DNA from: Paenibacillus sp. FSL H8-0537
Lineage (GTDB): Bacteria; Bacillota; Bacilli; Paenibacillales; Paenibacillaceae
NCBI RefSeq assembly: GCF_038051995.1
Contig: NZ_CP150290.1
Coordinates: 1,103,501 to 1,167,500 of the forward strand
Length of the DNA stretch: 64,000 nt
Direction of reading: 5' to 3'
In this document: positions 1,570 to 23,656 of the stretch, in pieces
How positions within the stretch are numbered: the stretch's first letter is position 1
Layout of the letters: the number at the start of each line of letters is the position of its first letter
The notes under the pieces: generated by a model
The model's input: the letters and a program-made list of their open reading frames with translations, nothing else
What the model was told of the DNA's origin: nothing
Database searches by the model: none
Translations under genes and position numbers: made by a program

Positions 1570-4500
1570 ATGGATGTAAAAAATGATAATGACACGCAAA
1601 TTCAAAGAACACCTAGAATTATGCCTTATTACCCAGAAGGTGAGCTAGTTCTTCAGGATCCTGCAAAACCACTGGGCAAGCCAACATTTGCATGGCTTAC
1701 GATTTTAGTTCCTCCGCTTGCGATGCTTGTTGTTGCTATATTTATGTCAACTCTAACTAAATCACATATTATGTTAATTTCTACAATTGGAATGACGACT
1801 GTGACGGTAGTTGTATCCATACTAAATTACAGATCAACAGTTAAGAAGCATGAAGAGCAAACGAAAAAGCAGGAGAAGAAGTACCTCGATTATCTATTTA
1901 ATATCCGTTATGAATTGTTGGAAGCATCTAATCAGCAACGGGAAGCACTCCGCGTTATATCTCCCTCGATAGATGAATGTATCTCCATTGTTAGACAAAG
2001 ACAGAAGCAATTGTGGGAACGAACGGCAATGGAGACGGACTTTTTAACGATAAGAATAGGGAATGGGATGCAGCCCTTAGCTCTTAATCCTACATACACG
2101 TCTAATACAAAAGCGGTAGATGAAGATAACCCATTAGAAAAAATAGCGAGTACCATTTGTGAAGAATTGGCCTTTGTTCAGGATGTGCCCGTGCAAATTC
2201 CTTTACAGTCGATTAGCACATTGGGGCTCTTCGGGAAAAGGGCAGAAGTTAGCGAGTTTTTGAATGCTATGCTTGTACACTTGACTACTCATCACGGTTT
2301 CGATGATGTCAAAATTGTAGGTCTGTTTGATCAGGCTGAGATGGAGATGTGGGGATGGACAAAGTGGCTGCCGCACACTTGGGATAAAGATCGTGAAATT
2401 CGTTTTTTAGCTAGCAATGAGTATGAAGCTTCTATCCTTGCAGACGTTCTATTACCCGAAATGAAGAGGCGGGAAGAGGACAAGCCCTCCTATGGAACAA
2501 AGACGATTAAGCTGCCGCACTACGTTTTTCTCATGCTTGCTCCCACATTGTGGGAAGATTCCGATCTAATGAAATATATCGTTTCAAACAATGATTCGTT
2601 GGGGATAACGAGCATCTTTATTTCGGAGAGAATTGATGTGGCGCTTCCTTTGAATTCCCAGGTCATTATCGAAGTGAAGAACGGCCAAGGCATGACTAAG
2701 AAAGATTTAAATCATTGTATGGGGCAAAGCACCTATCATTTTTTATCTGATAGCGTAAGCAGCAAAAATGCAGAAGTTTTTGCGAGAATGCTGGCTCCTT
2801 TAACGATTAAAGAGACAAAAAATAATAGCTTTATTCCTCCAATGGTTACTTTTCTAGATAGCTTTAATGTCAAGCTTGTCGAGGAATTGAACATTGCCAA
2901 TCGTTGGGGCACAAATCAGGCTAATCGAACGCTCGCTGTACCACTTGGACAGGCTAGTGCAGGCAAAACCTTGCTGTTTGATATGCATGAGAAAAATTAT
3001 GGGCCCCATGGTCTAGTAGCAGGCACAACGGGCTCGGGGAAAAGTGAGCTTTTGCAATCCTTATTGCTGGCTTTAGCTGTTAATTACCATCCGCATGAAA
3101 TTGCTTTCGTTCTCATTGATTATAAAGGCGGCGGAATGGCAAATGCCTTTGCTGGTTTGCCTCATCTGGTCGGAACGATTACGAATTTAGGCGGTAACCA
3201 AATTAATAGAGCGCTGGCCTCGATCAAAAGTGAGCTTTTGCGTAGACAGCGTTTGTTTGGTGAAGCGGGAGTAACAAGCATTGACGATTACATTGTGTTG
3301 TATCGCGAGCAAAAGGTTCAATTGCCATTGCCTCATTTAATAATCGTTGTGGACGAGTTTGCTGAGCTTAAATCTGATCAGCCTGAGTTTATGAAGGAGC
3401 TTGTTAGTGCGGCTAGGGTTGGCCGAAGCTTAGGCATTCATCTTATTTTAGCGACTCAAAAGCCTTCAGGTGTTGTTGATGATCAAATATGGAGTAACTC
3501 CAGATTTAAATTATGTTTGAAGGTTCAAACGCCATCTGATAGCCAGGAAATGTTAAAGCGTCCTGATGCTGCTGAGATAAAGGAAAAAGGCAGAGGTTAT
3601 TTGCAGGTAGGGAATAATGAAGTGTTCACCCTATTCCAATCCTCGTGGAGTGGTGCTCCTTATAATAATACGGATAGTGAGCAAGAAATTGAAATTAAAG
3701 CCAATGCTCTTGGTTTCAATGGTGAGCGTAAGCGCCTTTTGCCAAAAATCAGTAATAATAATGAGTCTAAACGCTTAAATCAGCTGGAATCAGTAGTGAA
3801 ATATATTAATCAGGTATCTGAGGAGAGAAATATTCGAGAAGCATTCCAATTATGGCTGCCGCCACTGCCGGAATTATTGAGCCTACAGGAACTATTGGTC
3901 AACGAGGAAGGCTGGGATGGACAGCAATGGACGGAGCCGAGTGATTATCTAGTAGCTCCTGTTGGATTAATTGATAACCCTTCACAGCAAGCGCAATACC
4001 AGCTCAAAATTGATTTTGGAAGAGATGGACATCTGCTTATCTATGGTGCGCCAAGCAGTGGGAAAACAACGATGTTAAAAACCATTTTGATGTCGCTTGC
4101 GCTGAAATATAATCCAGACTATGTGCACTTTTATATTTTGGATTTTGGTACGAGAACGTTAGGTGTTTTTAATGATATTCCTCATCTGGGCGACGTTATT
4201 TATCCGGAAGATGAGCAGAAAGTAGATAAATTACTACAACTGCTATTAAACGAATTGGAAGATCGCAAGCGGAAGTTTTCTAAGCTGGGGATTAGCAATC
4301 TGGTAGCTTACCGTTCTTATACAAAAGAAGAGATTCCTTCTATCGTTGTTGCTCTAGATAACTATACGGGGTTCGCGGAAAGTTATGTGGAACAAGTGTT
4401 GGAATTAGGGAAGCTAGTAAGGGAAGGCGGAAATTATGGCATTTATTTTGTTTTTACAGGAAATGCCATAAATACTTTCCCTTACCGAATTGCCCAAAAT

Positions 4501-5562
4501 ATAAAACAATCCATTGTATTTCAGATGGTGGATTCTTCCGATTACTCAAGCATTGTTGGACGTACAGAGGGATTGGAGCCGGCTAAGGTTGTTGGACGGG
4601 GACTTGTGAAAGATCAAATGCCTTTAGAATTCCAAGGAGCTACCCCTGTTGAAGGGGGAAGTGATGATCAGATTGCGGAAGGCATTCGTGTACTATCGGG
4701 GCATATGAAGGATAAGTGGAAAAAGAAACAGGTAAAAACAATTGCTATTATTCCGGATGAGCTTAGCATTAAGGAGTTTATTGCGAATGCAAAAATAAAC
4801 GCCAGTGATCGGGAAGGGAAGAATTATACATTTCCAATCGGGCTGGATTGGGACAATACTCTTCCGTTCGAGGTGGATGTAAGCAGCACGAATAGTCTTC
4901 TCATTTCTTATGCTCCAACGGTAAATGCGGAACTGCTGTTTGCTTCCTTGCTTCACTCCATGAGCGCTTTTCTGGATGCTGAACGGGTGAAAATCAATGT
5001 TTTCGATAGTTCGACCGTTCTTAAGTCAAGTGAAAATGCCCATATGGAAAATGTTCATTATATGCGAACGGAAAGCGAGTTTTCATTATTAACCCACTCT
5101 GTTATAGAACAATTGCAAATTCGAAAAAATGATTCCCGTGAATATGTTGCGAATATGGATGATCCTGATCAGTTTAATGAAAGCGACTATATCCTCAGTC
5201 GATATCCGCTGTTCATTATCTGCCTTCCAGATCTTAAGGCTTCGATCGAGCTGATGGATGGTGACTCACTGCAGCATATGGAGAGGATAGCTCGTTTTGG
5301 TGGGGGCTTGGGAGTCCACTTATTAATTGGCGGGCTTGCGGATGACATAGATCAATTGCAGTTGGTGACATCATTGGTGCCTTTGCTGGCTGAAGGGAAG
5401 TCTAAGATGCTGGCTGGAGGTAAGCCCTTCGAGCATACAACGCTTATTGGAGACAGTTATAAAGGTGATTTCCAAGAATTAAATCGCAAGATGCAAGATG
5501 GGGAAGCAAGGTTCGTATTGGGAAATGAAATTAGAAGATTGAAAATGCCGACCGCATTGTAG
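1570..5562 (+). CDS. EssC/YukB-like type VII secretion ATPase (FtsK/SpoIIIE family)
   Basis: Core motor of a type VII secretion system: a membrane-anchored ATPase that would recognise WXG100 substrates and drive export. The ATG at 1570 has GGTGG 8 bases upstream; an in-frame ATG at 1555 overlaps that site and is less likely, giving 1330 residues. Two membrane segments lie near residues 40-90, followed by a charged helix. The first ATPase domain has Walker A GTTGSGKSE near residue 486 and Walker B IIVVDEF near 590. The second has GAPSSGKTT near 826 with a weakened Walker B (ALDNY). The third, from about 1070 to the end, has no GK[ST] loop and is degenerate. The N-terminal FHA domains of Staphylococcus EssC are absent. 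First gene of the operon. Family confidence is high; no symbol is given because subtype is unclear. Confidence 0.9.
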   Translation: MDVKNDNDTQIQRTPRIMPYYPEGELVLQDPAKPLGKPTFAWLTILVPPLAMLVVAIFMSTLTKSHIMLISTIGMTTVTVVVSILNYRSTVKKHEEQTKKQEKKYLDYLFNIRYELLEASNQQREALRVISPSIDECISIVRQRQKQLWERTAMETDFLTIRIGNGMQPLALNPTYTSNTKAVDEDNPLEKIASTICEELAFVQDVPVQIPLQSISTLGLFGKRAEVSEFLNAMLVHLTTHHGFDDVKIVGLFDQAEMEMWGWTKWLPHTWDKDREIRFLASNEYEASILADVLLPEMKRREEDKPSYGTKTIKLPHYVFLMLAPTLWEDSDLMKYIVSNNDSLGITSIFISERIDVALPLNSQVIIEVKNGQGMTKKDLNHCMGQSTYHFLSDSVSSKNAEVFARMLAPLTIKETKNNSFIPPMVTFLDSFNVKLVEELNIANRWGTNQANRTLAVPLGQASAGKTLLFDMHEKNYGPHGLVAGTTGSGKSELLQSLLLALAVNYHPHEIAFVLIDYKGGGMANAFAGLPHLVGTITNLGGNQINRALASIKSELLRRQRLFGEAGVTSIDDYIVLYREQKVQLPLPHLIIVVDEFAELKSDQPEFMKELVSAARVGRSLGIHLILATQKPSGVVDDQIWSNSRFKLCLKVQTPSDSQEMLKRPDAAEIKEKGRGYLQVGNNEVFTLFQSSWSGAPYNNTDSEQEIEIKANALGFNGERKRLLPKISNNNESKRLNQLESVVKYINQVSEERNIREAFQLWLPPLPELLSLQELLVNEEGWDGQQWTEPSDYLVAPVGLIDNPSQQAQYQLKIDFGRDGHLLIYGAPSSGKTTMLKTILMSLALKYNPDYVHFYILDFGTRTLGVFNDIPHLGDVIYPEDEQKVDKLLQLLLNELEDRKRKFSKLGISNLVAYRSYTKEEIPSIVVALDNYTGFAESYVEQVLELGKLVREGGNYGIYFVFTGNAINTFPYRIAQNIKQSIVFQMVDSSDYSSIVGRTEGLEPAKVVGRGLVKDQMPLEFQGATPVEGGSDDQIAEGIRVLSGHMKDKWKKKQVKTIAIIPDELSIKEFIANAKINASDREGKNYTFPIGLDWDNTLPFEVDVSSTNSLLISYAPTVNAELLFASLLHSMSAFLDAERVKINVFDSSTVLKSSENAHMENVHYMRTESEFSLLTHSVIEQLQIRKNDSREYVANMDDPDQFNESDYILSRYPLFIICLPDLKASIELMDGDSLQHMERIARFGGGLGVHLLIGGLADDIDQLQLVTSLVPLLAEGKSKMLAGGKPFEHTTLIGDSYKGDFQELNRKMQDGEARFVLGNEIRRLKMPTAL

Positions 5563-5609
5563 AAGCAGGATTGCTGAGTGGGGCCAATCGATTTTATAGG
5601 TGGAGAATC

Positions 5610-6302
5610 ATGGATATCATTAGAGAGACTTTTCAATTAAGTGAGTATGAACTTGTTTATCTAACCTCTTTAATCGGGGGAGCGGGTATTCCAGGGGTTA
5701 GCATGAAGCTTGAATTTGCGTCAGATGGAGATATACGCAATGCGATGAACGCGCAACAGCGCTCCTTGGAAAATAAGCAACTCATCGAAATTGATTTTGA
5801 TGGCGTTGCTAAAGTTAATGCTACCTTGCATGAGTTCATAGAGCTGGCGACCTCTTCAGTAAATTATTACAGCCAGTCTATTGAGCTTGGTAGGCGGACC
5901 GAGCGGGAAGTGTTTTATTTTGCAGAGGAGCCCTCTGTTTTTGGTATGCATTATGATGAGGAAACACAATGTTATATCGTTAGAAAGTTTTATAGTTTGC
6001 AAGAAATACAAGTGGAAATAACCGAGCGCTTCTCACTGGATGAGGGAGAAGCGCTCGTGAGTGAATCGAAGAGCTCTGAGGAAGTACAGGAGTGGCTTGT
6101 CGAGGCGATAGAAAAAGATGCGTTTTTAACAAAACTCTGCTTGTTTGAGGTTTCAGGTGAAAACAGCGAGCTTGTAAGCTGGTTTGCTATTTTAAAAGAG
6201 GGAAAACAACTTTGGAGAATTGAGAAGGATGAGCATGAAAATTATGATCGTTCATTATTGAGCTTGCCAGCAGCCATTAACGAAATTTATTCATGGTTCT
6301 AA
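5610..6302 (+). CDS. Unknown protein in the secretion operon, possible EspG-like chaperone
   Basis: A 230-residue soluble acidic protein with no membrane segment or signal. The ATG at 5610 follows AGGTGGAG by about 5 bases; an in-frame start at 5571 has no ribosome site. It sits directly between the EssC-like ATPase and the YukD-like gene. The opening FQLSEYELVYLTSLIGG and the general size and alpha/beta pattern resemble the EspG-type cytoplasmic chaperones of mycobacterial ESX systems, but I can point to no diagnostic residue. Treat this as an untested structural guess; the safe call is a conserved accessory protein of this locus. Confidence 0.75.
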   Translation: MDIIRETFQLSEYELVYLTSLIGGAGIPGVSMKLEFASDGDIRNAMNAQQRSLENKQLIEIDFDGVAKVNATLHEFIELATSSVNYYSQSIELGRRTEREVFYFAEEPSVFGMHYDEETQCYIVRKFYSLQEIQVEITERFSLDEGEALVSESKSSEEVQEWLVEAIEKDAFLTKLCLFEVSGENSELVSWFAILKEGKQLWRIEKDEHENYDRSLLSLPAAINEIYSWF

Positions 6303-6337
6303 CAGCTTAAAGTTGAAACCGTTAGGTGGTAAAACAT

Positions 6338-6592
6338 ATGCAAAGTGCAATCATCACTTTTATTATTAATTCGGGTCAAGCTGAAACCGTGCAAGACTTA
6401 GAAGTTTCGCTTGGCATAACACTAAAGCAATTGCTTGTCATTTTACAAACGGCTTATTTGTTGCCGGATCAGCATCAGTTTAAATGTGAATTTAGCTCTA
6501 CGGGTGAAGAATGGAATAGCCTTGAAGAGGATGAACGACTGTCCAATGTTATTTTCGGAGATGGATCGCTTATCCGTATTATTTTAATTTGA
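6338..6592 (+). CDS. YukD/EsaB-like ubiquitin-fold protein
   Basis: An 84-residue protein with the beta-grasp plan of YukD (Bacillus) and EsaB (Staphylococcus), small cytoplasmic ubiquitin-like accessory proteins of type VII secretion. The N-terminal strand SAIITFII, a central helix (LEVSLGITLKQLLVILQTA), and a C-terminal GSLIRIILI strand match the fold; it ends without a Gly-Gly tail, as YukD does. The ATG at 6338 is preferred because AGGTGG lies 8 bases upstream; the GTG at 6326 is inside that site. It is a key marker that the locus is type VII related. The call rests on fold pattern, size and context. Confidence 0.7.
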   Translation: MQSAIITFIINSGQAETVQDLEVSLGITLKQLLVILQTAYLLPDQHQFKCEFSSTGEEWNSLEEDERLSNVIFGDGSLIRIILI

Positions 6593-6622
6593 ATTTATTT
6601 TGTAGTGGAATGAGGGTTTCTT

Positions 6623-8077
6623 ATTAAAAAGATACATTTAGTCTGCGCTCCTGAGCTCACCATGCTGCTCTCGCGAACGCTAGAAAATGAAGGGTTCGTT
6701 ATTTCAGGCAATCATGATAGCTTGAGTCAGCTTATTCAGGGGTTGCGCTCAAAGGAAGTAGATTCATCGGCGACCATCATTATTCAGGGAGGAGCAGGGC
6801 TGAGAATTCCTGTTAACCCAGATGAGGTTGTAGCATTAATGCAAGCTGTTCGAAAGCGGCTTAAATACACTAGACTTATTGTTCAATTGGATACTGCCTT
6901 GCAAAATGAGGTTGAATTTATAAGGTCCATGGTTAACATGGGTGTGCATGATCTTCAATTTACAATTGAATTTAAAAGCGATGATATTCTAAATTGGATC
7001 AAAGAGAAGAAAACAACCAGAGATTATTACAATATTTTAGGGAAAAAGAAATGGCGAATCCCCTTTATTCGTTCAGCTAATCAAGATCAGGCTGGTCAAG
7101 GAGGGGGAGGCAGTGCTAATCCGCCCCCAGATAACGGCACTTTACAATCTTTAACAAGGCCTCAGCCTTCAAGTGCGCCTGCGTCTGGAGGGAGAGTGAA
7201 TCCGTCTCCGTCTCCGTCACCAACTCCGTCAGGCGGTATAAGAAATGAACAGAGCAGAGCGAATTCAAATATAAGGCCTAGAACAGAAAACCCTTTGCCA
7301 CAGCCAGAGGTGGAGCAAGATGAAGATATAGATGCTGCTCCTATATCCTCTGCAGAAAGAATAATGACAGGGAGTCACCTGCCTCTCATTATAGGGGTGT
7401 GTGGAGTTGGTGGTGAAGAGGATGTTGGTGCGGCGGCCTTTCTAATGGCATCAAGTTTGGCAAAGCTGGGTTGGAAGCCTTTAGTTTGTGGGGATGATCG
7501 ACCTGAAATAAGCTCGCTAGAGGAAGTGGCTTTTGATGGTGAGAAGGAAGATTCCTCTTCAAATATGTTTGAGTATGAAGGGGTTACCTTCTACAGAAGA
7601 GGTTACATTTGGGATATATCAGAGCTAATGACTAGTGGCTTTACTCATATTATTTTGTGGGTGGATATTCATAAGGAACGTAGAGGCATAAGTGCCCTAG
7701 AGTTATGGTGGAATTCTCAAATCCCTATTATGGTGGGAAATGGGGCGATGTGGAAATATGAGCTTTTGAAGGAAAAGCTCAACACGCTGACGCCGCATGA
7801 ACGCAAAAGATGCAGATTGCTTTTGGAAAAGGGACATCAGGATGTGCTGCGAAAGCTGAAGAAGGATTTTGCGGAAATTCAGGCGACGTTGCTTCCTGAT
7901 CATGATGATCCGCTTTACCCAAGTGAAAAAGCAGTAGAATGGGCAAGTGGATTGCTCGGCAGTCAAAAGAAGCTATTCCGTAAGCCGGTTATTAATTGGA
8001 TTATTATCGGATCCGTTATTTTTATTACCTTACTCCTAGTGTTTATGGGAATAGCGATTGTTCCTGAAAGTCAGTAA
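6623..8077 (+). CDS. CpaE/TadZ-like protein with proline-rich linker and C-terminal membrane anchor
   Basis: The ATG usually picked would be 6662, but the frame is open back to a stop at 6611 and the added codons encode IKKIHLVCAPELT, a natural first beta strand of a receiver-like domain. AATGAGG stands about 8 bases before an ATT at 6623, so an ATT start is proposed (485 residues). Residues 1-150 look like the pseudo-receiver domain of TadZ/CpaE. A Pro/Ser/Gly linker of about 80 residues follows. Then comes a ParA/MinD-like domain with a degenerate loop (GVCGVGGEEDVGAAAF, no lysine). One membrane helix lies 15 residues before the end. In Tad systems such proteins position the machine at the membrane. 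If the ATT start is wrong, the coding region begins at 6662. Confidence 0.7.
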   Translation: MKKIHLVCAPELTMLLSRTLENEGFVISGNHDSLSQLIQGLRSKEVDSSATIIIQGGAGLRIPVNPDEVVALMQAVRKRLKYTRLIVQLDTALQNEVEFIRSMVNMGVHDLQFTIEFKSDDILNWIKEKKTTRDYYNILGKKKWRIPFIRSANQDQAGQGGGGSANPPPDNGTLQSLTRPQPSSAPASGGRVNPSPSPSPTPSGGIRNEQSRANSNIRPRTENPLPQPEVEQDEDIDAAPISSAERIMTGSHLPLIIGVCGVGGEEDVGAAAFLMASSLAKLGWKPLVCGDDRPEISSLEEVAFDGEKEDSSSNMFEYEGVTFYRRGYIWDISELMTSGFTHIILWVDIHKERRGISALELWWNSQIPIMVGNGAMWKYELLKEKLNTLTPHERKRCRLLLEKGHQDVLRKLKKDFAEIQATLLPDHDDPLYPSEKAVEWASGLLGSQKKLFRKPVINWIIIGSVIFITLLLVFMGIAIVPESQ

Positions 8078-8129
8078 AGGCTGCAATTACTCGATTCGTG
8101 TATTCATAAAATAAGGGGGAGGATGAACA

Positions 8130-8468
8130 ATGGTTACTTCGATGCAGGTTAGTGGCTATAGTACCCAATGTACGGAGCTAATAAGAAGCGCTCAAGCATG
8201 CAGCAGTGAAATGAGCCAATCGATTAAAGGCATGACCTCCTACTGGAACGAAATGGGTCAAGCTCAATTCGCAGCAGAATGTCAAGGCTGGATTAAAGCT
8301 ATGAATGAGGTTCAGCGGCAGCTTTCGCAAGTGCAGACAAGCCTTAATCAGTATTCTAGCCAATTGAGGCAAGAGGAGCTTGCTAAAGAACGTGAGGCAG
8401 CAAGGCAGCGTGAGCAAGAAGCTGCTGCAAGAAATGCTGCGAAAACAACAACTGTAAAGACTAGGTGA
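8130..8468 (+). CDS. WXG100-like small helical protein
   Basis: A 112-residue all-helical protein. Two helices of about 35 residues flank a YWNEMGQAQF turn near residue 38-47, where WXG100 (ESAT-6-like) proteins carry Trp-X-Gly. Here the motif is WNE followed by MG, a variant. The C-terminal 30 residues form a charged Glu/Arg/Ala coiled coil with no YxxxD/E secretion tail that I can see. The ribosome site GGGGGAGG is very strong. It lies inside the operon between CpaE-like and CpaB-like genes, so it may be a structural or co-secreted partner and not an effector. WXG100 membership is by pattern. Confidence 0.7.
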   Translation: MVTSMQVSGYSTQCTELIRSAQACSSEMSQSIKGMTSYWNEMGQAQFAAECQGWIKAMNEVQRQLSQVQTSLNQYSSQLRQEELAKEREAARQREQEAAARNAAKTTTVKTR

Positions 8469-8518
8469 TTCATCCTATACATAAATAGTTGTCAGACTAT
8501 ATAGATGGAGGTTGTAAA

Positions 8519-9586: not shown

Positions 9587-9591
9587 AAAGA

Positions 9592-10164: not shown

Positions 10165-10995
10165 ATGCTTGTAGCTTTCTGGGGACCTGTCCATGGACAG
10201 GTTCGAACTACCTCTAACATGATTGCTGCTGCTACCACTATAGCGCTTGATCATCATTTAAGAATTTTAATGACACATACGCACTTTGAGCGTTCAACCT
10301 TGGAGAAGGCGTATAGCAATTTGAGACAAACGAGCACCTCCTCCATATCCGCTGTTGGAATGGGGGCGATTGAGCGGCTCGTACAATGTGGGATGCTGAC
10401 GGCTGAAGGAGTTAGGGACAATTCGGAGTCTATTTTGAAGGATAGGCTGGATTTAATAGCAGGTCCCTCTAATCGAGATGAGGATTCCTTGCGGCAGGTG
10501 CTTCCTCATATTTTTGAGACCTATAAACAGTTTTATGAATTGTTATTTATGGATGTTTCTTCGGGCACACGCAATGAAATGTCAACGTTAGTGATGCAGC
10601 ATGCCGACCTAATTGTTATTAACTTGAGTCAAAATCGCTCAGTGCTTGATTCCTTTTTTGGAAAAGAAGATTGGCCCTCTGTGTTGAACGAAAAACCGGT
10701 CGTGTATTGTATTGGCTCCTACGAGCGAAACTCCAAAATGACAATAGAACGCATAGCAAGAGAGTATGGCATTAACAAGAAGCAGATTGGTTACGTGCCG
10801 CATAATGTGCGTTATATGGATGCGCAAAACGATCAAAATATTATTAATTATTTGTTGAAAGCAAGGATAGCCAAAAAAAGGTTTCTTGAGTTTAATGAGG
10901 ATGCTTATTTCACTAGTTCTATACGTCATGTAGGGACGCAGATTCTTGGCGCTTTAAATATGTATACAACTGTGGAGGATGACGGCAATGATTAA
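10165..10995 (+). CDS. MinD/ParA-like (CpaE/TadZ-type) ATPase
   Basis: A 276-residue SIMIBI-type ATPase homologue. The first strand LVAFWGPVHGQVRTTSNM matches the modified P-loop seen in CpaE-type proteins of Firmicutes Tad loci, where the signature lysine of KGGxGKT is missing or replaced. A switch-like segment LLFMDVSSGTRNEM (about 127-140) and VVYCIGSYERNSK complete the fold. It would act on the cytoplasmic face, recruiting or placing the CpaF motor. The ATG comes immediately after the previous stop with GGGGG upstream. Its end overlaps the CpaF-like gene by 8 bases, again showing coupling. Confidence 0.75.
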   Translation: MLVAFWGPVHGQVRTTSNMIAAATTIALDHHLRILMTHTHFERSTLEKAYSNLRQTSTSSISAVGMGAIERLVQCGMLTAEGVRDNSESILKDRLDLIAGPSNRDEDSLRQVLPHIFETYKQFYELLFMDVSSGTRNEMSTLVMQHADLIVINLSQNRSVLDSFFGKEDWPSVLNEKPVVYCIGSYERNSKMTIERIAREYGINKKQIGYVPHNVRYMDAQNDQNIINYLLKARIAKKRFLEFNEDAYFTSSIRHVGTQILGALNMYTTVEDDGND

Positions 10996-12835
10996 TTTTA
11001 TTCTGATTGTCATTGTGATTGTAGCTATTATCGGATTTATATATTTCTGGATGACGAGGCGGAACTCAAAGGAAGAGTCGGCTAACTATTTGAAATATGA
11101 CATGAATGAAATTGTGGTGTTCATTAGAAAAGCTTTCGAAGAAATTATCGCTTCATCTTTATATGAAGGCAGTCCAGGAGTAGAAGAATACAACCGTAGG
11201 AAGGCGCGCAGGAGGGAATTGCAGAAGGCGCTGCGTTCCTGTATGCATGGTGACCTGTCAGCGAAGAAATTTGTAAAGCTTTATATGCGCGACCTGCTAT
11301 TGAATACGTATGGTTTAAATGAGACTAATGTGAATACCGTCATTAGATTTGATTATATGGACAAGCTTAGCTCTCAGGATTGCTTTGAGATTTTATTGCA
11401 TGTTTATCAAAAAGACCATCGCCAAGAGGCTTTTAATAAAATCATCGATAAATATAATCTAGACCAGCTCGTAAAGCTGGAGGATGGCTCTAAAGGTTAT
11501 CGTATAACGGAAGAACAAATTCGCAGCATTTATCTGGCGGAAAAACCGAGGCTTACCTTTCAGGATAAAGTCGACATTATCGTACAGAGAGCCTATCAAA
11601 TTTATAAAGGCTTGGGTGCTATTGATGAGCTCCGTGATCAGAATATAGACGGTATTAATGGCGGGACAAGCGGTATGCCTCCAGATGTCGTACAAAATAT
11701 TGATATTAATCATTATGTAAATCAGCAAAGATTTATTGCTCGATCTTATGATGCCATATGGATATTTTATCGGGGGAAATCCTTGCAGCTGGAGTTTCTC
11801 AGCTTCGGCTCCGAGCAAGAATTAAAGCGTGTTTGTCAAAATATTTATGGATTTGGTAATCCGGGACAGCTCAATGAGGCTAGAGGCTACATTATTAACG
11901 ATATGGCGGATGGCAGCCGGGTCGTTGTCGTCAGACCGAAAATGGCGGAAAGCTGGGCCTTTTTCGTTCGTAAATTCAATGATTCGCTTACTGATTTGGA
12001 AGAACAGATTAAGGATGAAGGATCTGAGCTCGTTATTAATATGCTCATTTATCTTATTTTGGGGCATCAGGTCACAGCTATAACCGGTCGGCAGGGTTCC
12101 GGTAAAACCACACTGCTTAAGGCGTTAATCAAATATATTTATGCTAAAAACATTCGGATTCAGGAGACATCGTTTGAAATTTGGGCGCGAAAAATGTATC
12201 CTCACAAAAATATTTTGTCCTTCAGAGAAACGCCAACCGTTAGTGGGCAAGATGGGCTGGATGTTCAGAAAAAGACGGATGGTGCGGTTAACATTGTCGG
12301 TGAGGCGGCTACACATTCTGTCGTTAGTTATGTCATTCAGGCAGCACAGGTTGCTTCCGAATATACCTTATTCACGCATCATGGCAAAACATTAGCGAAT
12401 TTGATTAATGCCCTTCGTAACAGCTTGATTGCTTCGGGCGCATTTTCCAATGAGAAAATAGCTGAAAGTCAGGTCGTTGAGGCATTGGGCTTTAATGTTC
12501 ATTTGGTCCTTCGTTCGGGGAAACGGTTCGTTGAGCGAGTCACGGAAATCATTCCTGTCGATACCCAATATGAATATCCTAAAACGTATAAAGAGGCTGA
12601 AAATGTAACCGATAAGCTGGATGCTTTTATGGATACGATGACCGAATATTTTGGCCGCGTTACGGATCGACAATCCTATCAATATAGAGACGTGATTGTT
12701 TGGGAAAATGATAAGTATGTGGTGAAGGACAGAATAACAGCGCGTAAAGCGGAAGAAATGCTCAAAAATATGGATCATGATGATGCCGAAAGCTTTAAAG
12801 CCTTTTTATTGGCCCATTGGGGGGAAGCGGCATGA
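10988..12835 (+). CDS. CpaF/TadA-like secretion ATPase (T2SE family)
   Basis: Hexameric motor ATPase of the Tad/type II secretion superfamily. The N-terminal membrane helix (residues 2-20) is unusual for CpaF. A helical N-domain follows, then the motor with Walker A GRQGSGKTTLLKALIKYI near residue 366. A downstream basic region (QTSFEIWARKM) and the AATHSVVSYVIQAAQV and FTHHGKTLANLINALRN stretches match the Asp-box and His-box parts of CpaF. The ATG at 10988 is chosen because GTGGAGG lies 10 bases upstream; an ATG at 10979 abuts that site. It overlaps the next gene as ATGA. This is the clearest single marker of the Tad half of the locus. Confidence 0.88.
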   Translation: MINFILIVIVIVAIIGFIYFWMTRRNSKEESANYLKYDMNEIVVFIRKAFEEIIASSLYEGSPGVEEYNRRKARRRELQKALRSCMHGDLSAKKFVKLYMRDLLLNTYGLNETNVNTVIRFDYMDKLSSQDCFEILLHVYQKDHRQEAFNKIIDKYNLDQLVKLEDGSKGYRITEEQIRSIYLAEKPRLTFQDKVDIIVQRAYQIYKGLGAIDELRDQNIDGINGGTSGMPPDVVQNIDINHYVNQQRFIARSYDAIWIFYRGKSLQLEFLSFGSEQELKRVCQNIYGFGNPGQLNEARGYIINDMADGSRVVVVRPKMAESWAFFVRKFNDSLTDLEEQIKDEGSELVINMLIYLILGHQVTAITGRQGSGKTTLLKALIKYIYAKNIRIQETSFEIWARKMYPHKNILSFRETPTVSGQDGLDVQKKTDGAVNIVGEAATHSVVSYVIQAAQVASEYTLFTHHGKTLANLINALRNSLIASGAFSNEKIAESQVVEALGFNVHLVLRSGKRFVERVTEIIPVDTQYEYPKTYKEAENVTDKLDAFMDTMTEYFGRVTDRQSYQYRDVIVWENDKYVVKDRITARKAEEMLKNMDHDDAESFKAFLLAHWGEAA

Positions 12836-14913
12836 GTTTGCAATCCATATTGCTGATCATCATTTTGATTTCAGTTGGTTTGCTTTTAGCCTTATTAGCT
12901 GTTTATGTATGGGTTCAAAACAAGCTGAAGGGCTCGCAATATAAGGAACAGAGAAGATTAAAAGCATTGCTCCCTTCTAAGCCCAAAGAACGCAAATGGC
13001 TGGAGCTTGCGCTTGCTGCTTATCCTATATTGGACGAAATTCCTTTTGTGCGTAATGTGCTTCATCGCATGAGAGTGAGATTGACAGTTATTCATGCAGG
13101 CAATGACACGGTCATAAGAAGCCAAGCGGCTGCTCTGACTATAGGCATAATGGCTTGTGTGCTTTTACTTAGTATTGTTTCTTTTTTATGGACCTCCTCT
13201 TGGTTCAGCCGAATGTCGATTGTGCTGGTCTCCGTTTATTTAAGCGGTGTGCTGAGCGATATTTTTATTGGGCGCTTAAGCAAGCAAATTTTATATGATC
13301 AGTCTTCAATGATTTTGGATATCAGGCATCAGTACCATCAAACCCATATGGTGTTGGTAAGCTTAGAAAATTCGGCTGAGCGTTCGAAGCCGCTTGTTGC
13401 GGAGCATGCGAGGCGAATCGCCAGCATATTAAGTGCTGTCGATCCCCAAGACGAGCTGCAGAAATATTATGATACGGCGCCAAATCGGTACATGAAGCAG
13501 CTAGCGGGTGTCAGCTACAAAATTGGCGAGTATGGCGATGTAGATATACATAAAGGCGAGAAATCCATTTATTTAGCGATGCTCGGAAATATTCGTGAAG
13601 AAATTCATCTGGATATTAATCGCAGAGAGCGAATTGACCGTTTATTGGCTGGGATTGTCTTTGTGGCCGTTTCGCCTATTTTTATGCTAGATCCAATCCG
13701 GAACTGGGCCGAAAGCATGTTTCCGATTGTATCGGATTATTATAATTCTGCCTGGGGCTTGTATTCGCTAATTCTGCTCTACATTATTTTTGCAACCTCC
13801 TTTATTGCCTTGCGAATTTTGAAAGGGGTAGATGGAGATGCGCAGGCTGTTAAAGACGAGGGGAAATGGCTGAATCGTTTACTGAAGATCAAGGGAGTAA
13901 AGCAGTTTGTTGGACGGATTACGCCCGCCGAACACGATTCTCTCCATCTAAAGGCGCTGAATAGACTGAAAGAAGCAAACTCATCGCTTACGATTCACGC
14001 CTATTATCTGCAAAAAATAATCGTCTCTGTAGTCGCCTTTTTGGTCATTATCGTATTCCAGGTTTCCATTCATCAGACGATTAAGCATAACGTGCTGGAG
14101 CCCAATATAGCCATTACTACAGGGGGAAACCAGCCTGAATCGCAAAGATTGCTAAGCGAGGAACGTTACCGGTTTGAAAATTCGCTTGTTGGCGAGCTGG
14201 TAGCTAAAGATGTTTCTACGGATGAAGCATCAGCCTATATTTATAAAAATCTTCAAAATAAAAACTACTTGCCGGAGGGCTTGGATGAAGCTAAATACGC
14301 CGCTGGCCTTATGGAACGGGTAGAGGCATACAAGAGTGAATATTATAAATGGTATGAGTTAATTATTGCCTTTTGCATAGCGCTGGCCTTTTTCTACGCT
14401 CCTGACGTCTACTTGGTTATTCGGAAGCAAATTAGGAAGTGGGAAATGCAAAATGAGGTGGATGGATTTAATACGCTGTCTATGATGCTATCCAATTTCC
14501 CGAATATTAGCGTGTACGAAATCATTGAGTGGCTTCATCGCTATAGTTATATTTTCGAAAGACAATTGCTGCGCTGCATGCTTGATTACGAGGCCGGAGC
14601 ATGGGGAGCAATAGAGCAGCTGAAAGACGATGCGCGCTTTGTGCCATTGGAACGGCTGGCAGATCGTTTGCAGGTTGCAGCAGATTTGATTCCTGTGAAA
14701 GAGGCCTTCGATGATATGGAAGCAGAAAGAGCCTTTGCTATGGATCAGCGCAAGGAACATTATGAGAAAACGATTAGTACGAAGAGCACATTGGGGAAAA
14801 TGTTTGGCTTCCTGCCTATTCAGGCGACATTTGCTTTATATTTATTGCTTCCTTTTGCTTATATGGCATTCCAACAGCTTAGTGATTTAACGATACTAAC
14901 AAGCAAGATGTAG
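12832..14913 (+). CDS. TadB/TadC-like polytopic membrane protein, possibly a fusion
   Basis: A 693-residue membrane protein with about seven or eight helices: one at the N-terminus, a pair near 100-150, further helices near 275-340, one near 400, one near 510 and one close to the C-terminus. Ordinary TadB and TadC are about 300 residues each with T2SF domains. The double length and repeated helix pattern suggest two T2SF-like halves joined in one chain, forming the inner-membrane platform for the CpaF motor. The start ATG overlaps the previous stop as ATGA, with GGGGGGAAG upstream. The T2SF assignment is by topology and neighbour, not by a recognised motif. Confidence 0.7.
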   Translation: MSLQSILLIIILISVGLLLALLAVYVWVQNKLKGSQYKEQRRLKALLPSKPKERKWLELALAAYPILDEIPFVRNVLHRMRVRLTVIHAGNDTVIRSQAAALTIGIMACVLLLSIVSFLWTSSWFSRMSIVLVSVYLSGVLSDIFIGRLSKQILYDQSSMILDIRHQYHQTHMVLVSLENSAERSKPLVAEHARRIASILSAVDPQDELQKYYDTAPNRYMKQLAGVSYKIGEYGDVDIHKGEKSIYLAMLGNIREEIHLDINRRERIDRLLAGIVFVAVSPIFMLDPIRNWAESMFPIVSDYYNSAWGLYSLILLYIIFATSFIALRILKGVDGDAQAVKDEGKWLNRLLKIKGVKQFVGRITPAEHDSLHLKALNRLKEANSSLTIHAYYLQKIIVSVVAFLVIIVFQVSIHQTIKHNVLEPNIAITTGGNQPESQRLLSEERYRFENSLVGELVAKDVSTDEASAYIYKNLQNKNYLPEGLDEAKYAAGLMERVEAYKSEYYKWYELIIAFCIALAFFYAPDVYLVIRKQIRKWEMQNEVDGFNTLSMMLSNFPNISVYEIIEWLHRYSYIFERQLLRCMLDYEAGAWGAIEQLKDDARFVPLERLADRLQVAADLIPVKEAFDDMEAERAFAMDQRKEHYEKTISTKSTLGKMFGFLPIQATFALYLLLPFAYMAFQQLSDLTILTSKM

Positions 14914-14926
14914 AGGAGGGAATTCG

Positions 14927-15427
14927 ATGGAAAATATATCGGTATTCCTGAAAACAACGATATCCATACTTATTACGCTGGCGATTATTACATCCGGCAT
15001 GTTTTTATGGAGTGCCTCGCAGCCGGTGCTGCAGCTTGCCAATGGACAAGCTGCTGCTCAGGCGAGAGAGTTAACAGAGCAGCAATACTCAGCGTATGAC
15101 AATCAACTCGTCAGCGGTTCGCAAATTGTAACCGCCTATCGACGATATGCAACGCATGAGGGGCTTGTCCTGTATGTTCAGTTTTATAAAAATGGGGCAT
15201 ACACCAATTTCGGTATGAGGCCAGATGAAGTATCGAGTGCCTGCAGAAATTTTAATTATTCGTCTGGGCAAGTTACGGAAGGCACCTCCTATAATTGTTA
15301 TGCCGATGAGGATGATTTGACGAGCAGTTACAGCTCGTATTATATCTCTCCCCAGTCTCGGTTCCGGGCGACGCTGATTAAGGATGCGAACAACACGATT
15401 CAGGCTATTTATTTTCGATCGCAATAG
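14927..15427 (+). CDS. Pilin-like single-helix protein A
   Basis: A 166-residue protein with one N-terminal membrane helix (residues about 10-30), then an exported domain rich in Ser, Tyr and Asn. It begins MENIS and carries the motif YDNQLVSGSQIVTAYRRY near residues 57-74, shared with the next gene. Two cysteines (about 101 and 117) could form a disulfide. Such proteins occur as minor pilins or pseudopilins in Firmicutes Tad loci. No clear Gly-x4-Glu prepilin cleavage site is visible, so it may stay as an anchored protein. The ribosome site is GAGGAGGGA. Confidence 0.7.
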   Translation: MENISVFLKTTISILITLAIITSGMFLWSASQPVLQLANGQAAAQARELTEQQYSAYDNQLVSGSQIVTAYRRYATHEGLVLYVQFYKNGAYTNFGMRPDEVSSACRNFNYSSGQVTEGTSYNCYADEDDLTSSYSSYYISPQSRFRATLIKDANNTIQAIYFRSQ

Positions 15428-15495
15428 TGCTTATGCAACAATCGCTTAAATGAAAGAGTAGGTCAAGGCCACTATATTTATAAAGGATGAGTGAA

Positions 15496-16011
15496 ATGGA
15501 AAATATTTCAACAGGGTTAAAGTGGGTTATTGGAGTTATCGTTACGATTCTCATTATAGCTGCGGCTGTCAGTATTTATCTTGTCATTAATGGATATTTC
15601 AACCGGGCACAAGAGCAGACGCTCGCCCAGACGAAGCTGATTAATCAGGCAGAATTCAGCGGTTATGATAATAAAGACGTATCTGGTCAGGATGTTATTA
15701 ATGCTTCTACTCGCTATGGCGGCCGCCCGCAATTTTCTATTTTTATTAAAACGGGTGAAAATACAACAGGATTTTATGCTAAAAATAACTATGATATTTG
15801 TTATGATGCTCCTTATAGCACGACGACTGATTTTACTGTAAAAGTTTCGGGAGAAGTGAAGTGTGCAGCTGGAGAACAAATAGATGTATCTACAATGCAA
15901 GATCAAACTAAAAGTACTAACTATATTAATACTACAGCGGTGTTTACTTCGAAAACATATAGGGATAACAATGGAGAAGTTAGGCTAATATATTTTGATC
16001 AAAAGAAGTAG
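15496..16011 (+). CDS. Pilin-like single-helix protein B, paralogue of the previous gene
   Basis: A 171-residue protein starting MENIS like its neighbour; this shared start and the AAAGGA site 9 bases upstream favour the ATG at 15496 over 15487. A membrane helix spans about residues 10-32, followed by a GYDNKDVSGQDVINASTRYGG motif region equivalent to that of protein A, and two cysteines at about 100 and 120. The pair probably arose by tandem duplication and then diverged. Likely roles are minor pilin subunits or tip proteins of the Tad-like part. Base composition matches the rest of the operon. Confidence 0.7.
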   Translation: MENISTGLKWVIGVIVTILIIAAAVSIYLVINGYFNRAQEQTLAQTKLINQAEFSGYDNKDVSGQDVINASTRYGGRPQFSIFIKTGENTTGFYAKNNYDICYDAPYSTTTDFTVKVSGEVKCAAGEQIDVSTMQDQTKSTNYINTTAVFTSKTYRDNNGEVRLIYFDQKK

Positions 16012-16019
16012 GTTGATCC

Positions 16020-16388
16020 ATGAATACAACACGTCAATTTTTATTTACCTTGTTTGCTTGGATTCTCTTTATGATTGGCGGCTTTATCTTTTTGAAAAAT
16101 GAGAGCAGCCAGCTGGAGCAGCTGCCAATTCTTGACTCCACAACACCTTATGTATCTTCAGCTTTATATAAAGGTACAGGAAACCTGAATCAAATTAGCG
16201 GAGACCAGGTGATAGGCATGGTGCCTTTTGCTCTGAATGGCGAGTACACTTTATCGATTGATGGCATTAGGGTGGATGCTGATACGGATATTGAGGAAAT
16301 CGATCTTCGAGGGGTGTCAGGTTTAAGCTATACCTTATCAGTAACGAGAACGAATGGCAAAATTACAGCAGTTCGCGCCAGTCACTGA
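16020..16388 (+). CDS. Small pilin-like membrane protein
   Basis: A 122-residue protein with a short basic start, one membrane helix (residues 7-25) and a small exported beta-rich domain. The ISGDQVIGMV segment echoes the VSG-x-x-V motif of the two proteins before it, which hints at a shared origin. It is 8 bases behind the previous stop, so it is co-translated. A structural or chaperone role in the pilus-like machine is likely, but no family is recognised. Confidence 0.65.
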   Translation: MNTTRQFLFTLFAWILFMIGGFIFLKNESSQLEQLPILDSTTPYVSSALYKGTGNLNQISGDQVIGMVPFALNGEYTLSIDGIRVDADTDIEEIDLRGVSGLSYTLSVTRTNGKITAVRASH

Positions 16389-16406
16389 TGGAAAGGAGGG
16401 ACAAGT

Positions 16407-16952
16407 GTGGCTGACGCATTAAAGGGAATCGTGGTCGTCATTTTACTTGTATTTGCTTTCATTATATATCCTGCCTATCGTCAGTCGGAAAACGTTGAAG
16501 AGGAAATTAAGCAGCGTGCGAATGCGGCGGCCATTGAATTTGTGGACACGGTACGCTCGAAGGGCTATGTGGACTTGTATGATTATAAATTATTCCTCTC
16601 TTCACTGGACGCATCCTATGGCGTATTTGAGGTTCAGCTTGAATATTACAAAAAAAATCTGCAGCCAAACTATACAGACCCGAATGACTTTTCAACGTTT
16701 CAAAACAGCTTTAACGTTCGGTATGACGGATATTACACAAAAGAAATCTTGAATCAGCTATACGGCAACGCCGCTTTGGCCGAGGACGATCCGAATCGCC
16801 GCTTTAATATGTTCGTCGGAGATTTATTTAATGTGCGTCTGTCCCTTAAAGGGACGACGCTAGCATCTAATTTTCGAACCTTCTTATTTAAGAGTCAAAA
16901 TGTACCCATCAACATCAAGTATGGGGGGATGGTAAGAAATGAGGCCCCTTAG
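16407..16952 (+). CDS. TadE-like pseudopilin
   Basis: A 181-residue protein with an N-terminal membrane helix (about residues 5-22) followed by AAIEFVDTVRSKGYVDLYDY, a pattern typical of TadE-like and clostridial Flp minor pilins, and then FLSSLDASYGVFEVQLEY, which keeps the usual short strand. The start is GTG 16407 with AAAGGAGGG upstream. It overlaps the next gene by 14 bases. It probably forms a minor pilin complex with the following protein. Confidence 0.7.
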   Translation: MADALKGIVVVILLVFAFIIYPAYRQSENVEEEIKQRANAAAIEFVDTVRSKGYVDLYDYKLFLSSLDASYGVFEVQLEYYKKNLQPNYTDPNDFSTFQNSFNVRYDGYYTKEILNQLYGNAALAEDDPNRRFNMFVGDLFNVRLSLKGTTLASNFRTFLFKSQNVPINIKYGGMVRNEAP

Positions 16953-17913
16953 CGTGCTGCTTCTATTTCTTGTGCTTGCAATTCCTCTAGTTGTATTAAA
17001 TGATGCCAAGCAAGATTTAGAGAGCTTTAACAAGGAAATGCATAGGCGATATACGAGCGATTTTCAAGCTGCGGTTGATGACACGGGTGCTTATTTATCC
17101 CGTCTGGAATCACAGCAAACGACGGTATCGGTCAGATATCAGCAGGAAAAGCAATTAGATCTGGATCAAGAGATGATCAATGTTTTTTATGAAAATTTGG
17201 CATTAAAGTTTGGCATTGAAAATAATGCCGTAGCTATTCAAAACCTAAAGCTGCATATTCCTGCCCTAGTCATGATTCGTTATAACGGCTATGTCATGGT
17301 GACGCTGGATGATACGGCTAGCTATGAAGGGGGACAGGAGCTAACTTCGGTTTTCTGGCCTGCACGCTCCTTTCTATATCAGCTGCGAAATGGCAATACC
17401 ATTTATTTCACCATGGACAACAACGCGCTTGTCTACGACAAGGGCCAAAATCGTTTTTATCAGGGCGACTATGAGTCTCTTAGTGCGCAGACGAATCTGG
17501 CCCCGCTTCTTACCATTGAGCAGTTTAAAGAGATCAGGCAAAGCACGATTACATCCTTGATTGAACAAGATATGGCGACGGCGATTAACAGGCATATGGA
17601 GATTGCTAAGCGGCTAGGGCTTTCTGTGCAGTTTACTTTGCCTAAAGGCATTGATCAGCAGTCAATCAAAGATATGGGATTTATGGCGTTTATTCAAGGG
17701 TATCCTCTGCCGGGTGGGGAGCGTTTGGATGCTTATTCATTCGCAGGCAGTGCGGTCGTTCAACGTAAGGCATGGGTAGGCACAATTGCTTCAAGCGGCA
17801 GGCATAATGCGTATCCTGAGCAATGCGTGCCGTCAACTGGAATAACGGTAATTGAAACGATATACGATGCGGAAGAAGCAGTTAGAAAGGGTTATTTTTT
17901 AAATGAATGCTAA
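16939..17913 (+). CDS. Exported TadF-like or anchored envelope protein
   Basis: A 324-residue protein with a signal-anchor helix at residues 1-20, a helical stalk (DLESFNKEMHRRYTSDF) and a large mixed domain. It ends in a cysteine, and a second cysteine (AYPEQCVPS) lies about 30 residues before the end, so a C-terminal disulfide is possible. Overlap with the TadE-like gene and the shared stalk pattern suggest a heterodimer. It is the last gene of the long operon; a 110-base AT-rich gap with a TATAAT at 17976 follows. No family was recognised with confidence. Confidence 0.65.
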   Translation: MRPLSVLLLFLVLAIPLVVLNDAKQDLESFNKEMHRRYTSDFQAAVDDTGAYLSRLESQQTTVSVRYQQEKQLDLDQEMINVFYENLALKFGIENNAVAIQNLKLHIPALVMIRYNGYVMVTLDDTASYEGGQELTSVFWPARSFLYQLRNGNTIYFTMDNNALVYDKGQNRFYQGDYESLSAQTNLAPLLTIEQFKEIRQSTITSLIEQDMATAINRHMEIAKRLGLSVQFTLPKGIDQQSIKDMGFMAFIQGYPLPGGERLDAYSFAGSAVVQRKAWVGTIASSGRHNAYPEQCVPSTGITVIETIYDAEEAVRKGYFLNEC

Positions 17914-18027
17914 AACATAAAGAAAATATTTCAATTAAATATAATAAAAGTGTAGATAAAAATGTGTTTATGTATTATAATACAAAAGAAGTAAAATAAG
18001 TAATTATATGAAAAGGAAGTGTTCATA

Positions 18028-18318
18028 ATGGCAGAGGTTAGATTGAGTTATGACGGTTTGAAAGGTCAAGGCCAAAAGGTACATGGTCAAAAAGAGCAAT
18101 TCGATGCTCTTCTGGCAAGTGTTATGGGCACGATCAATCAATTGGAATCCGTATGGAGCGATAAAGCGGCTAAAGATTTTATGGATCAGGTTCGCGGCAT
18201 GGAGCCAACGTTTAAAAAGTTTGGTGAAGCTCTTGAAGGACTGTCCAAGCATATGATTAACGTTTCGAATAAATACGAAGAGCTTTCCAATAACGTCATC
18301 AGCTCTCAAAAATTCTAA
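18028..18318 (+). CDS. WXG100 (ESAT-6/EsxA-like) protein
   Basis: A 96-residue protein of the WXG100 type: two helices around a VWSDKAAKDF turn near residue 41, where Trp aligns with the WXG motif although the glycine is replaced by aspartate. These small proteins are exported as dimers by type VII machines and are needed for effector export. The ATG at 18028 follows AAAAGGAAG; the GTG at 18019 is not needed. A TATAAT at 17976-17981 and a strong terminator just after the gene suggest a separate, probably abundant transcript. It stands between the machine and the first toxin, as in many type VII loci. Confidence 0.85.
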   Translation: MAEVRLSYDGLKGQGQKVHGQKEQFDALLASVMGTINQLESVWSDKAAKDFMDQVRGMEPTFKKFGEALEGLSKHMINVSNKYEELSNNVISSQKF

Positions 18319-23641: not shown

Positions 23642-23656
23642 TGAAGGATGAAAACT

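Follow-up and report, generated by a model that had tools for sequence, protein, structure and literature searches.

A Paenibacillus operon that combines type VII secretion genes with a Tad-like gene block

The window, a stretch of 64,000 nucleotides from Paenibacillus sp. FSL H8-0537, holds an operon in which genes for a type VII secretion ATPase and its partners are interleaved with a Tad-like gene block. This coupling of the two gene sets is real and conserved, and it is probably functional. On balance, we lean towards a type VII lineage without EssB, EssA and EsaA that has become integrated with a Tad-like envelope machine of the type IV filament superfamily. In this family of soil bacteria, a toxin exporter without its usual envelope parts repeatedly shares an operon with pilus-motor genes, which hints at a possibly borrowed pilus engine for crossing the thick cell wall.

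Two gene sets in one operon

On the type VII side, the plus-strand run at 1555–18318 encodes an EssC, two WXG100 proteins and a YukD-like protein; on the Tad-like side it encodes a CpaF-type ATPase, a membrane protein resembling a platform, and five small proteins, each with a single transmembrane (TM) segment. An earlier note on this DNA had placed both gene sets in one operon, and recomputed gaps and overlaps bear out this claim together with its gene order, strand and spacing. Intergenic gaps between EssC and TadBC are 0–69 bp, and the pairs CpaE/CpaF and CpaF/TadBC overlap. Downstream of TadBC, the pilin-like genes are separated by 8–59 bp with one overlap, and 105 bp lie between the end of p5 and the last WXG100 gene. 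The promoter-like and terminator-like sites given below are consensus matches from scans that return 43 promoter-like sites (47.4 in shuffles) and 20 terminator-like sites (15.3 in shuffles). The features are:

1342–1371, plus strand: sigma-70-like promoter-like site ahead of the operon (consensus match only, at 11 of 12 positions)
1555–5562, plus strand: EssC-type ATPase of 1335 aa with two TM segments close to its N terminus (TIGR03928)
5571–6302, plus strand: gB, EspG-fold chaperone-like protein (fold search)
6326–6592, plus strand: YukD-like (ubiquitin-like) protein (relatives match PF08817)
6662–8077, plus strand: gD, member of the Tad-like block with a C-terminal TM segment, CpaE/MinD-like by eye (relatives adjoin CpaB in several other loci)
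8130–8468, plus strand: WXG100 protein between gD and CpaB (PF06013, 31.1 bits, above the Pfam cut-off)
8489–9586, plus strand: CpaB-like protein (SAF family by relatives, PF08666)
9592–10164, plus strand: gG, conserved block protein without a named family (no Pfam match)
10165–10995, plus strand: CpaE-like protein (by position and eye)
10979–12835, plus strand: CpaF-type motor ATPase whose N terminus carries a hydrophobic anchor (profile, structure match, Walker A)
12817–14913, plus strand: TadB-TadC-like platform of putative homology, apparently two units in one chain (hydrophobic-segment spacing)
14927–15427, plus strand: p1, pilin-like, one N-terminal TM segment (topology, alignment)
15487–16011, plus strand: p2, pilin-like (topology, alignment, AlphaFold model examined)
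16020–16388, plus strand: p3, pilin-like (topology)
16407–16952, plus strand: p4, pilin-like (topology, alignment)
16939–17913, plus strand: p5, pilin-like, 324 aa (topology)
18019–18318, plus strand: second WXG100 protein (PF06013, 38.2 bits, above the Pfam cut-off)
18364–18404, plus strand: terminator-like hairpin of 19 pairs (consensus scan only)
18431–20608, plus strand: polymorphic toxin-like substrate candidate, 725 aa (compared with 27047–29173)
22349–23641, plus strand: S-layer-homology (SLH) protein that recurs as a partner of the Tad-like block (PF00395)
23648–27022, plus strand: DUF5704 protein, 1124 aa, likewise a recurring partner of this block (PF18964, 4e-57)

The NCBIfam model TIGR03928 recognizes EssC as full length (1272 bits against a cut-off of 778; profile positions 5–1295 of 1296); together with the PF06013 matches above cut-off, this confirms the names first given to EssC and the WXG100 proteins. 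At 1335 aa this EssC is shorter than classical EssC frames (1454–1514 aa in intact rows), and the 25 Pfam families listed, out of 29, do not include FHA. The name YukD-like stands through relatives, with PF08817 matched by five of seven aligned members and not by the protein at 6326–6592 itself. The protein encoded between EssC and YukD, overlooked in the earlier note, has the EspG fold, an ESX hallmark; its likeness to EspG comes from the fold search alone, a profile of the gene family having no match among PDB sequences.

Among the Tad labels, that of CpaF holds by profile. The protein matches TIGR03819 with an E-value of 5.3e-10, yet far under the model's cut-off; its family profile matches the solved CpaF structure 8rkd (E = 1.9e-33), and it carries a Walker A motif (GRQGSGKTT) and a hydrophobic stretch at 3–21. 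The CpaB-like label is carried by relatives (9 of 11 aligned members match SAF), whereas the protein itself has no match. The names CpaE-, TadB/C- and pilin-like derive from position and membrane topology. T2SSF is matched by none of 16 TadBC members, an hhalign comparison of TadBC with T2SSF is not significant, and TadBC is missed when the whole genome is searched for T2SSF; that search does pass at another Tad locus, of canonical appearance, at 5.32 Mb, where TadA-, TadE- and TadG-like genes can be read by eye. The spacing of hydrophobic segments in TadBC resembles that of TadB2 and TadC2 in a second gene layout described below, and a TadC2 relative (locus L225) aligns over most of the T2SSF model with an E-value of 0.07, under the cut-off. 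A Pfam search with gD gave no match of weight; with a profile built under strict inclusion, its relatives outside the layout match over about 40–55% of the model, at E-values between 1e-6 and 1e-17.

Each of p1–p5 has a single TM segment, at the N terminus. The prepilin leader motif, G-x4-E, is not visible by eye in the alignments of p1, p2 and p4, and no protein of the operon has a Pfam match to prepilin peptidase. A Foldseek search of the PDB with the AlphaFold model of p2 found no significant match; pilin folds may lie outside the list that Foldseek returned.

The toxin-like protein at 18431–20608 is 94.5% identical to that at 27047–29173 across the first 566 residues, while the C termini differ, and its relatives are found in loci of both main layouts. 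Relatives of the SLH protein occur in 16 fetched loci and those of the DUF5704 protein in 22, including beside blocks without a linked EssC. These surface partners in the same region, together with the leader that is not seen, would fit a reversed dependence in which EssC, EspG and WXG100 proteins export or place the parts of a Tad-like fibre and the toxins are passengers. We consider this improbable: the pilin-like proteins have relatives in genomes free of EssC, and their export therefore needs no EssC in general. Matches to the p3 profile are confined to window-type loci and a sister block (L131) in a genome where no EssC exceeds the cut-off.

The linkage among relatives

The layout of the window (I) is kept in ten species, one of them with a variant, with type VII genes interleaved with Tad genes; its EssCs form one clade (SH-aLRT 100) with identity down to 46%. 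The WXG100 gene sits between gD and CpaB, which adjoin in blocks uninterrupted by type VII genes, and in one locus (L092) EssC, EspG and two WXG genes all lie at this point. A second layout (II) runs CpaB2-ParA2-CpaF2-TadB2-TadC2, two pilin-like genes, YukD-DUF5050-EssC-WXG-WXG. Its Tad-like set is distantly related to that of the window. Of 394 genomes searched, 40 have TadB2, and in 39 of these the set lies ahead of EssC; a divergent block of this kind without EssC is found in L225. Clear Pfam passes in layout II are confined to CpaF2 (T2SSE, 1.2e-32), YukD (PF08817) and the DUF5050 protein. The earlier note had asked whether both motors co-occur in relatives, and in these two layouts their co-occurrence is conserved. 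Three rarer layouts (III–V) exist, one of them also in Tumebacillus; there EssC lies downstream of the block in two of three species (T. lacus and T. flagellatus) and scores 644–668 bits, under the 778-bit cut-off of TIGR03928.

In the CpaF tree, EssC-linked rows require six changes and occupy four distinct positions, one of them in Tumebacillus; on the EssC side, too, the linkage is conserved in several separate lineages. EssC-CpaF pairs no more than 20 kb apart number 11 against 0.37 expected; kinship inflates such counts and the independent events are few, the Poisson tail being 6e-4 if there were four. In a sample of 148 Paenibacillaceae genomes, 46 of 50 with EssC carry either block, as do 40 of the 98 without it (z = 4.97 when stratified by genus), and in the host's own genus EssC and a block occur in the same 3 of 15 genomes. 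A chance neighbourhood or an artefact of annotation, which the sparse sequence matches behind the TadBC and pilin labels might favour, is accordingly rejected as extremely improbable, given the excess of pairs and a gene order conserved in 39 genomes and ten species.

The block does not always accompany EssC; for the window type this idea is rejected. Separation of the CpaF block from EssC in relatives, named by the earlier note as evidence against its proposal, is what is seen here: of 80 genomes with a window-type block, 69 have no EssC within 20 kb of it, and among 39 clostridial assemblies that carry such a block, many of them small MAGs, 33 have no EssC match at all. Since most hosts have the block away from any EssC, it is able to work without it. 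Conversely, 31 of 56 EssC places in the Paenibacillaceae sample lack a linked block. A kinase gene is nearby at all 31 of these and at all six places in layouts III–V, and at none of the 19 in layouts I and II. This kinase-or-motor pattern fails outside the family, because the 15 divergent EssC loci there (L172–L186) comprise eight with a kinase, one with a block and six with neither (one on a short stretch).

These distributions bear on whether two complete, mechanically separate systems merely share a transcript, the Tad-like set forming a surface pilus or S-layer-linked fibre and EssC secreting toxins, with linkage owed only to a shared role in neighbour contact and to joint switching-on. 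Blocks that are common without EssC and keep their SLH and DUF5704 partners there, and the many EssC places without a block, speak for such an arrangement. The interleaving of type VII genes between gD and CpaB argues against it, as do the single EssC-free genome among the 40 with the second block and the kinase gene unseen in the family sample where the motor is present in layouts I and II. We regard separate systems as a possible but doubtful explanation.

Envelope parts and the putative role of the Tad-like block

The earlier note proposed that a CpaF/TadBC engine replaces EssB and EsaA, and allowed that these might be found elsewhere. They were not: EssB (PF10140, E-value 1e-5) was found in none of the 148 Paenibacillaceae genomes, the host included, by a search that detects it in the B. 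subtilis control, and no EsaA match (TIGR03929) exceeds the cut-off in any of them. Matches to EsaA below the cut-off occur in 143 of the 148 genomes (three in the host, the one listed at 5.41 Mb); we take these to be EsaA relatives of the YhgE/Pip type outside the type VII locus. EssC is present in 50 of these same genomes. EssA (PF10661) was searched in the host genome alone, with no match. The lack of EssB and EsaA thus agrees with the proposal, whereas the block's occurrence apart from EssC in 69 of 80 genomes does not fit it as worded; because the block is separable, replacement is to be read in an evolutionary sense, with a putative mechanism.

Within the preferred reading of an integrated lineage, a piston or conduit role of the Tad-like machine is tentative. 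The EspG-like, YukD-like and WXG100 proteins would pass polymorphic toxins to EssC, which would transport them through the membrane. The CpaF ATPase may rotate the TadBC platform, and the five pilin-like proteins may build a short pseudopilus or an anchored conduit that would stand in for EssB/EsaA and bring cargo through the thick wall. Such a single composite nanomachine, in which EssC and an EspG-type chaperone would load the toxins and a leaderless pseudopilus with its Tad-like rotary motor would move them across the wall, is a speculative extension that we put forward with low confidence; it includes several independent uptakes of a motor by EssB-less EssC lineages.

To our knowledge, the route of cargo from the membrane to the outside in type VII systems of thick-walled bacteria is an open question. 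Here a type VII membrane ATPase is coupled in evolution to relatives of a force-generating machine, where the standard envelope parts are not found. This points to a type VII family that, in Bacillota, extends beyond the EssB/EsaA model and has EspG-fold proteins in common with ESX. If the composite nanomachine were real, a type VII system would have a type IV filament engine as its outer half.

Comparison with known systems

The type VIIb system of Bacilli consists of EssC, EssB, EssA, EsaA, YukD and WXG100. The operon resembles it in an EssC that exceeds the curated cut-off, in its WXG100 and YukD-like proteins and in the toxin-like genes downstream, but differs in the absence of EssB/EsaA in the family sample and of EssA in the host genome, in a shorter EssC, and in the inclusion of an EspG-fold protein and CpaF, TadBC and pilin-like genes. 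Mycobacterial ESX systems (type VIIa) have the EspG chaperone, and EccB, EccD, EccE and MycP as further components. The operon's EssC reaches a far higher score against the Firmicutes model than against the EccCa and EccCb models, and it remains under the cut-off of both of the latter.

With the Tad (Flp) pilus the operon shares a CpaF-type ATPase, CpaB/SAF-like and CpaE-like proteins and a platform-like topology. It differs from that pilus in having no T2SSF match, no visible leader, an anchored CpaF and a single-chain platform. The kinase-type EssC loci of Paenibacillaceae share with the operon a divergent EssC, YukD-like and WXG100 proteins, often an EspG-fold protein, and no EssB, which in locus-level surveys was sought with a single-sequence model (from an L149 protein) that may overlook divergent forms. 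These loci have a TM kinase-like protein, which passes Pkinase in L113 but not in L103, and in most cases VWA- and PP2C-like genes as judged by eye, whereas the operon has the linked Tad-like block.

Gene content of the operon

The genome is a single contig of 7.0 Mb, of which the window covers 1,103,501-1,167,500. Between its positions 1555 and 18318 the window carries 16 genes, all on the plus strand and closely spaced up to p5. Their order is EssC, an EspG-fold protein, a YukD-like protein, gD, WXG100, a CpaB-like protein, gG, a CpaE-like protein, CpaF, a TadBC-like protein, the pilin-like proteins p1-p5 and a second WXG100.

Operon genes referred to by name
6662-8077, plus strand: gD
9592-10164, plus strand: gG
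10979-12835, plus strand: CpaF
12817-14913, plus strand: TadBC
14927-17913, plus strand: p1-p5

The Firmicutes EssC model is matched full length by the window EssC (1272 bits), and the CpaF family profile matches the solved CpaF (E 1.9e-33); the nearest relatives of the window's CpaF are from Paenibacillus. CpaF has a hydrophobic anchor at its N terminus, by eye common to 11 of 13 aligned rows (one of the 13 was cut) and missing from layout II, an arrangement tabulated below; to our knowledge such an anchor is unusual for this ATPase family. Eight hydrophobic segments were seen in TadBC, with a spacing resembling that of layout II TadB2 followed by TadC2, and sequence comparisons with T2SSF gave no demonstrable link. 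Each of p1-p5 has a single N-terminal hydrophobic segment; the predicted model of p2 (pLDDT 77.6) combines a few strands with a long helix at the N terminus, and a fold search with it against the PDB gave no significant match. A separate, canonical-looking Tad locus lies at 5.324-5.326 Mb of the same genome (L169, L170), with two T2SSF proteins and neighbours that are TadA-, TadE- and TadG-like by eye.

Standard type VII parts and EssC layouts

EssC scored over the cut-off in 50 of 148 Paenibacillaceae genomes, at 56 places. EssB was found in none of the 148 (the B. subtilis control was detected), EsaA over the cut-off in none of the 148, and EssA was absent from the window's genome, the scope of that search. 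A phylum sample of 199 genomes held EssC in nine and EssB in one. In a class sample of 299 genomes, intact EssC scores split into classical (at least 1512 bits) and divergent (at most 1300 bits). With a single-sequence EssB model, EssB adjoins EssC in 6 of 6 loci (the five fetched classical ones and L164) and was found in none of the 15 divergent loci outside Paenibacillaceae (L172-L186), which show a kinase in eight cases, a block in one and neither in view in six. No EssB, kinase or Tad-like block was recognised in the stretches of the divergent loci L177, L178, L180, L181, L184 and L185.

Profiles built in this analysis were used to type the gene surroundings of each of the 56 EssC places (55 fetched and the window), and 25 of the places are linked to a Tad-like block.

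EssC-Tad layouts in Paenibacillaceae, with number of EssC places
Layout I: window type (CpaB-gG-CpaE-CpaF-TadBC-pilin-like block); 5 of 56
Layout II: CpaB2-ParA2-CpaF2-TadB2-TadC2-two pilin-like genes-YukD-DUF5050 propeller-EssC-WXG-WXG; 14 of 56
Layout III: block immediately upstream of EssC; 3 of 56
Layout IV: block some kilobases upstream, long EssC (1540-1599 aa); 2 of 56
Layout V: block further upstream, CpaF at 17 kb in G116; 1 of 56

A kinase gene is present in the stretch at each of the 31 places without a linked block, in most cases accompanied by VWA- and PP2C-like genes (the latter two named by eye). The kinase gene also occurs in 6/6 places of layouts III-V, counting added downstream stretches of layout IV, but the stretches seen for layouts I and II show it at 0/19 places. 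For layout II, clear Pfam passes were CpaF (T2SSE), YukD and the DUF5050 protein; the labels CpaB2, TadB2, TadC2 and pilin-like come from position and topology, and the YukD profile did not recognise every YukD-size ORF. Nearly every layout II operon has the DUF5050 propeller-like gene placed after YukD and before EssC (e.g. L101:11551-12375).

Conservation of the linkage and the block without EssC

Besides the window, G039 and G036, the ten species with layout I comprise seven Paenibacillus records (L001-L007); two of these records are the same DNA as G060 and G021, which represent L004 and L007 in the trees. The ten EssC form one clade (SH-aLRT 100), and linkage is kept down to 46% identity to the window's EssC. 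TadB2 searches gave 14 of 148 genomes in the first sample, all layout II EssC places, and 40 of 394 in the second, those 14 included; 25 of the 26 new genomes have EssC downstream in identical gene order, the L209 stretch holding only the first 241 EssC residues. One layout II operon (L208) contains an ORF on the opposite strand, and in another (L213, G701) the frames of EssC and CpaF are both broken. A distant TadB2 relative (L225, G724; E 7e-29) belongs to a layout II-type Tad block without EssC; the neighbours of this block are a secreted-looking protein of 1356 aa and a gene judged by eye to be ParM/actin-like. Outside the family, Tumebacillus lacus (L186, L228) and T. flagellatus (L227) have EssC downstream of the block, at 644-668 bits and so under the cut-off; in T. 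permanentifrigoris (G617) it is on another contig.

As regards INDEPENDENCE and chance, the distribution of linkage on the CpaF tree (49 rows, built by a quick method) takes 6 changes to explain, and the linked members fall into four separate places: layout I; layouts III and V together (V being that of G116); layout IV; and Tumebacillus. Layout II CpaF is a different lineage, with 22% identity to the window's CpaF in the alignment. In the EssC tree, with 69 rows, a single branch separates each of layouts I, II, III and IV from all other rows. Among 40 genomes with both genes, 11 of 57 pairs of EssC and window-type CpaF lie within 20 kb, against 0.37 expected (Poisson tail 3e-13 uncorrected, 6e-4 counting only four events). 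Either block is present in 46/50 EssC genomes versus 40/98 without EssC (genus-stratified z 4.97); within the window's genus, EssC and block occur together in the same 3 of 15 and neither in 12. The coupling of type VII and Tad genes is real, conserved and recurrent.

Of the 148 genomes, 80 have the window-type block, and in 69 of these 80 no EssC lies within 20 kb of it; the block's nearest EssC-free sister (L131, G093) has even p3. Its SLH and DUF5704 proteins are the block's own surface partners, present also where EssC is absent. That the block is frequent without EssC and has its own surface partners counts against a single machine. The window has an SLH protein and a 1124-aa DUF5704 protein at 22349-27022, and both recur beside the block whether or not EssC is linked to it. 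Clostridia assemblies very often contain the block; there were at least 540 CpaF relatives, of which 80 loci were kept (L001-L080). Fifty genomes behind these loci were asked for and 49 were searchable, 10 named Paenibacillus, Cohnella or Tumebacillus records and 39 clostridial; EssC was found at E 1e-60 or better in 6 of the 39, the block-bearing Clostridia assemblies among those searched being mostly without it.

Interleaving, candidate cargo and overall reading

For INTERLEAVING, a gD relative lies immediately 5' of CpaB in L017 (= L135), L136, L142, L143, L114 and L120, and one gene separates the two in L144, the matches covering about 40-55% of the gD profile; L017, L136, L142, L143, L114, L120 and L144 are blocks without type VII genes in between. 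In layout I a WXG100 gene is placed between gD and CpaB, and in the variant order of G036 (L092; gD-EssC-EspG-WXG-WXG-CpaB, no YukD recognised) EssC, the EspG-fold gene and two WXG100 genes all are. This interleaved order is unlike that of two adjacent but separate clusters.

The genes at 18431-20608 and 27047-29173 encode proteins 94.5% identical over 566 residues, the remainder differing, and 30118-31365 is an incomplete copy without the first part, followed by a SUKH-type immunity-like gene (31355-31828). Judged from sequence, this array has the pattern of polymorphic toxins, with a shared N-terminal part and different C termini. A pentapeptide-repeat gene at 20631-21254 is a candidate immunity gene. 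Counting the window, 13 of the fetched loci (from 12 genomes) have relatives of the toxin-like protein, and every one of these loci belongs to layout I or II; downstream coverage of kinase-type loci is shorter, so that toxin absence there means little.

The earlier note had proposed a CpaF/TadBC engine standing in for EssB and EsaA. The best reading is an EssB-less type VII system and a Tad-like machine in functional partnership, within which motor-driven export is a possibility. In the kinase-type loci, which are a second kind of EssB-less EssC locus within the family (L102, L103, L109-L112, L115-L118, L121-L123, L125, L127-L130, L150-L162) VWA- and PP2C-like genes are usual and the kinase-like protein carries a TM segment, an arrangement that we take to resemble the pseudokinase plus TM of EssB.
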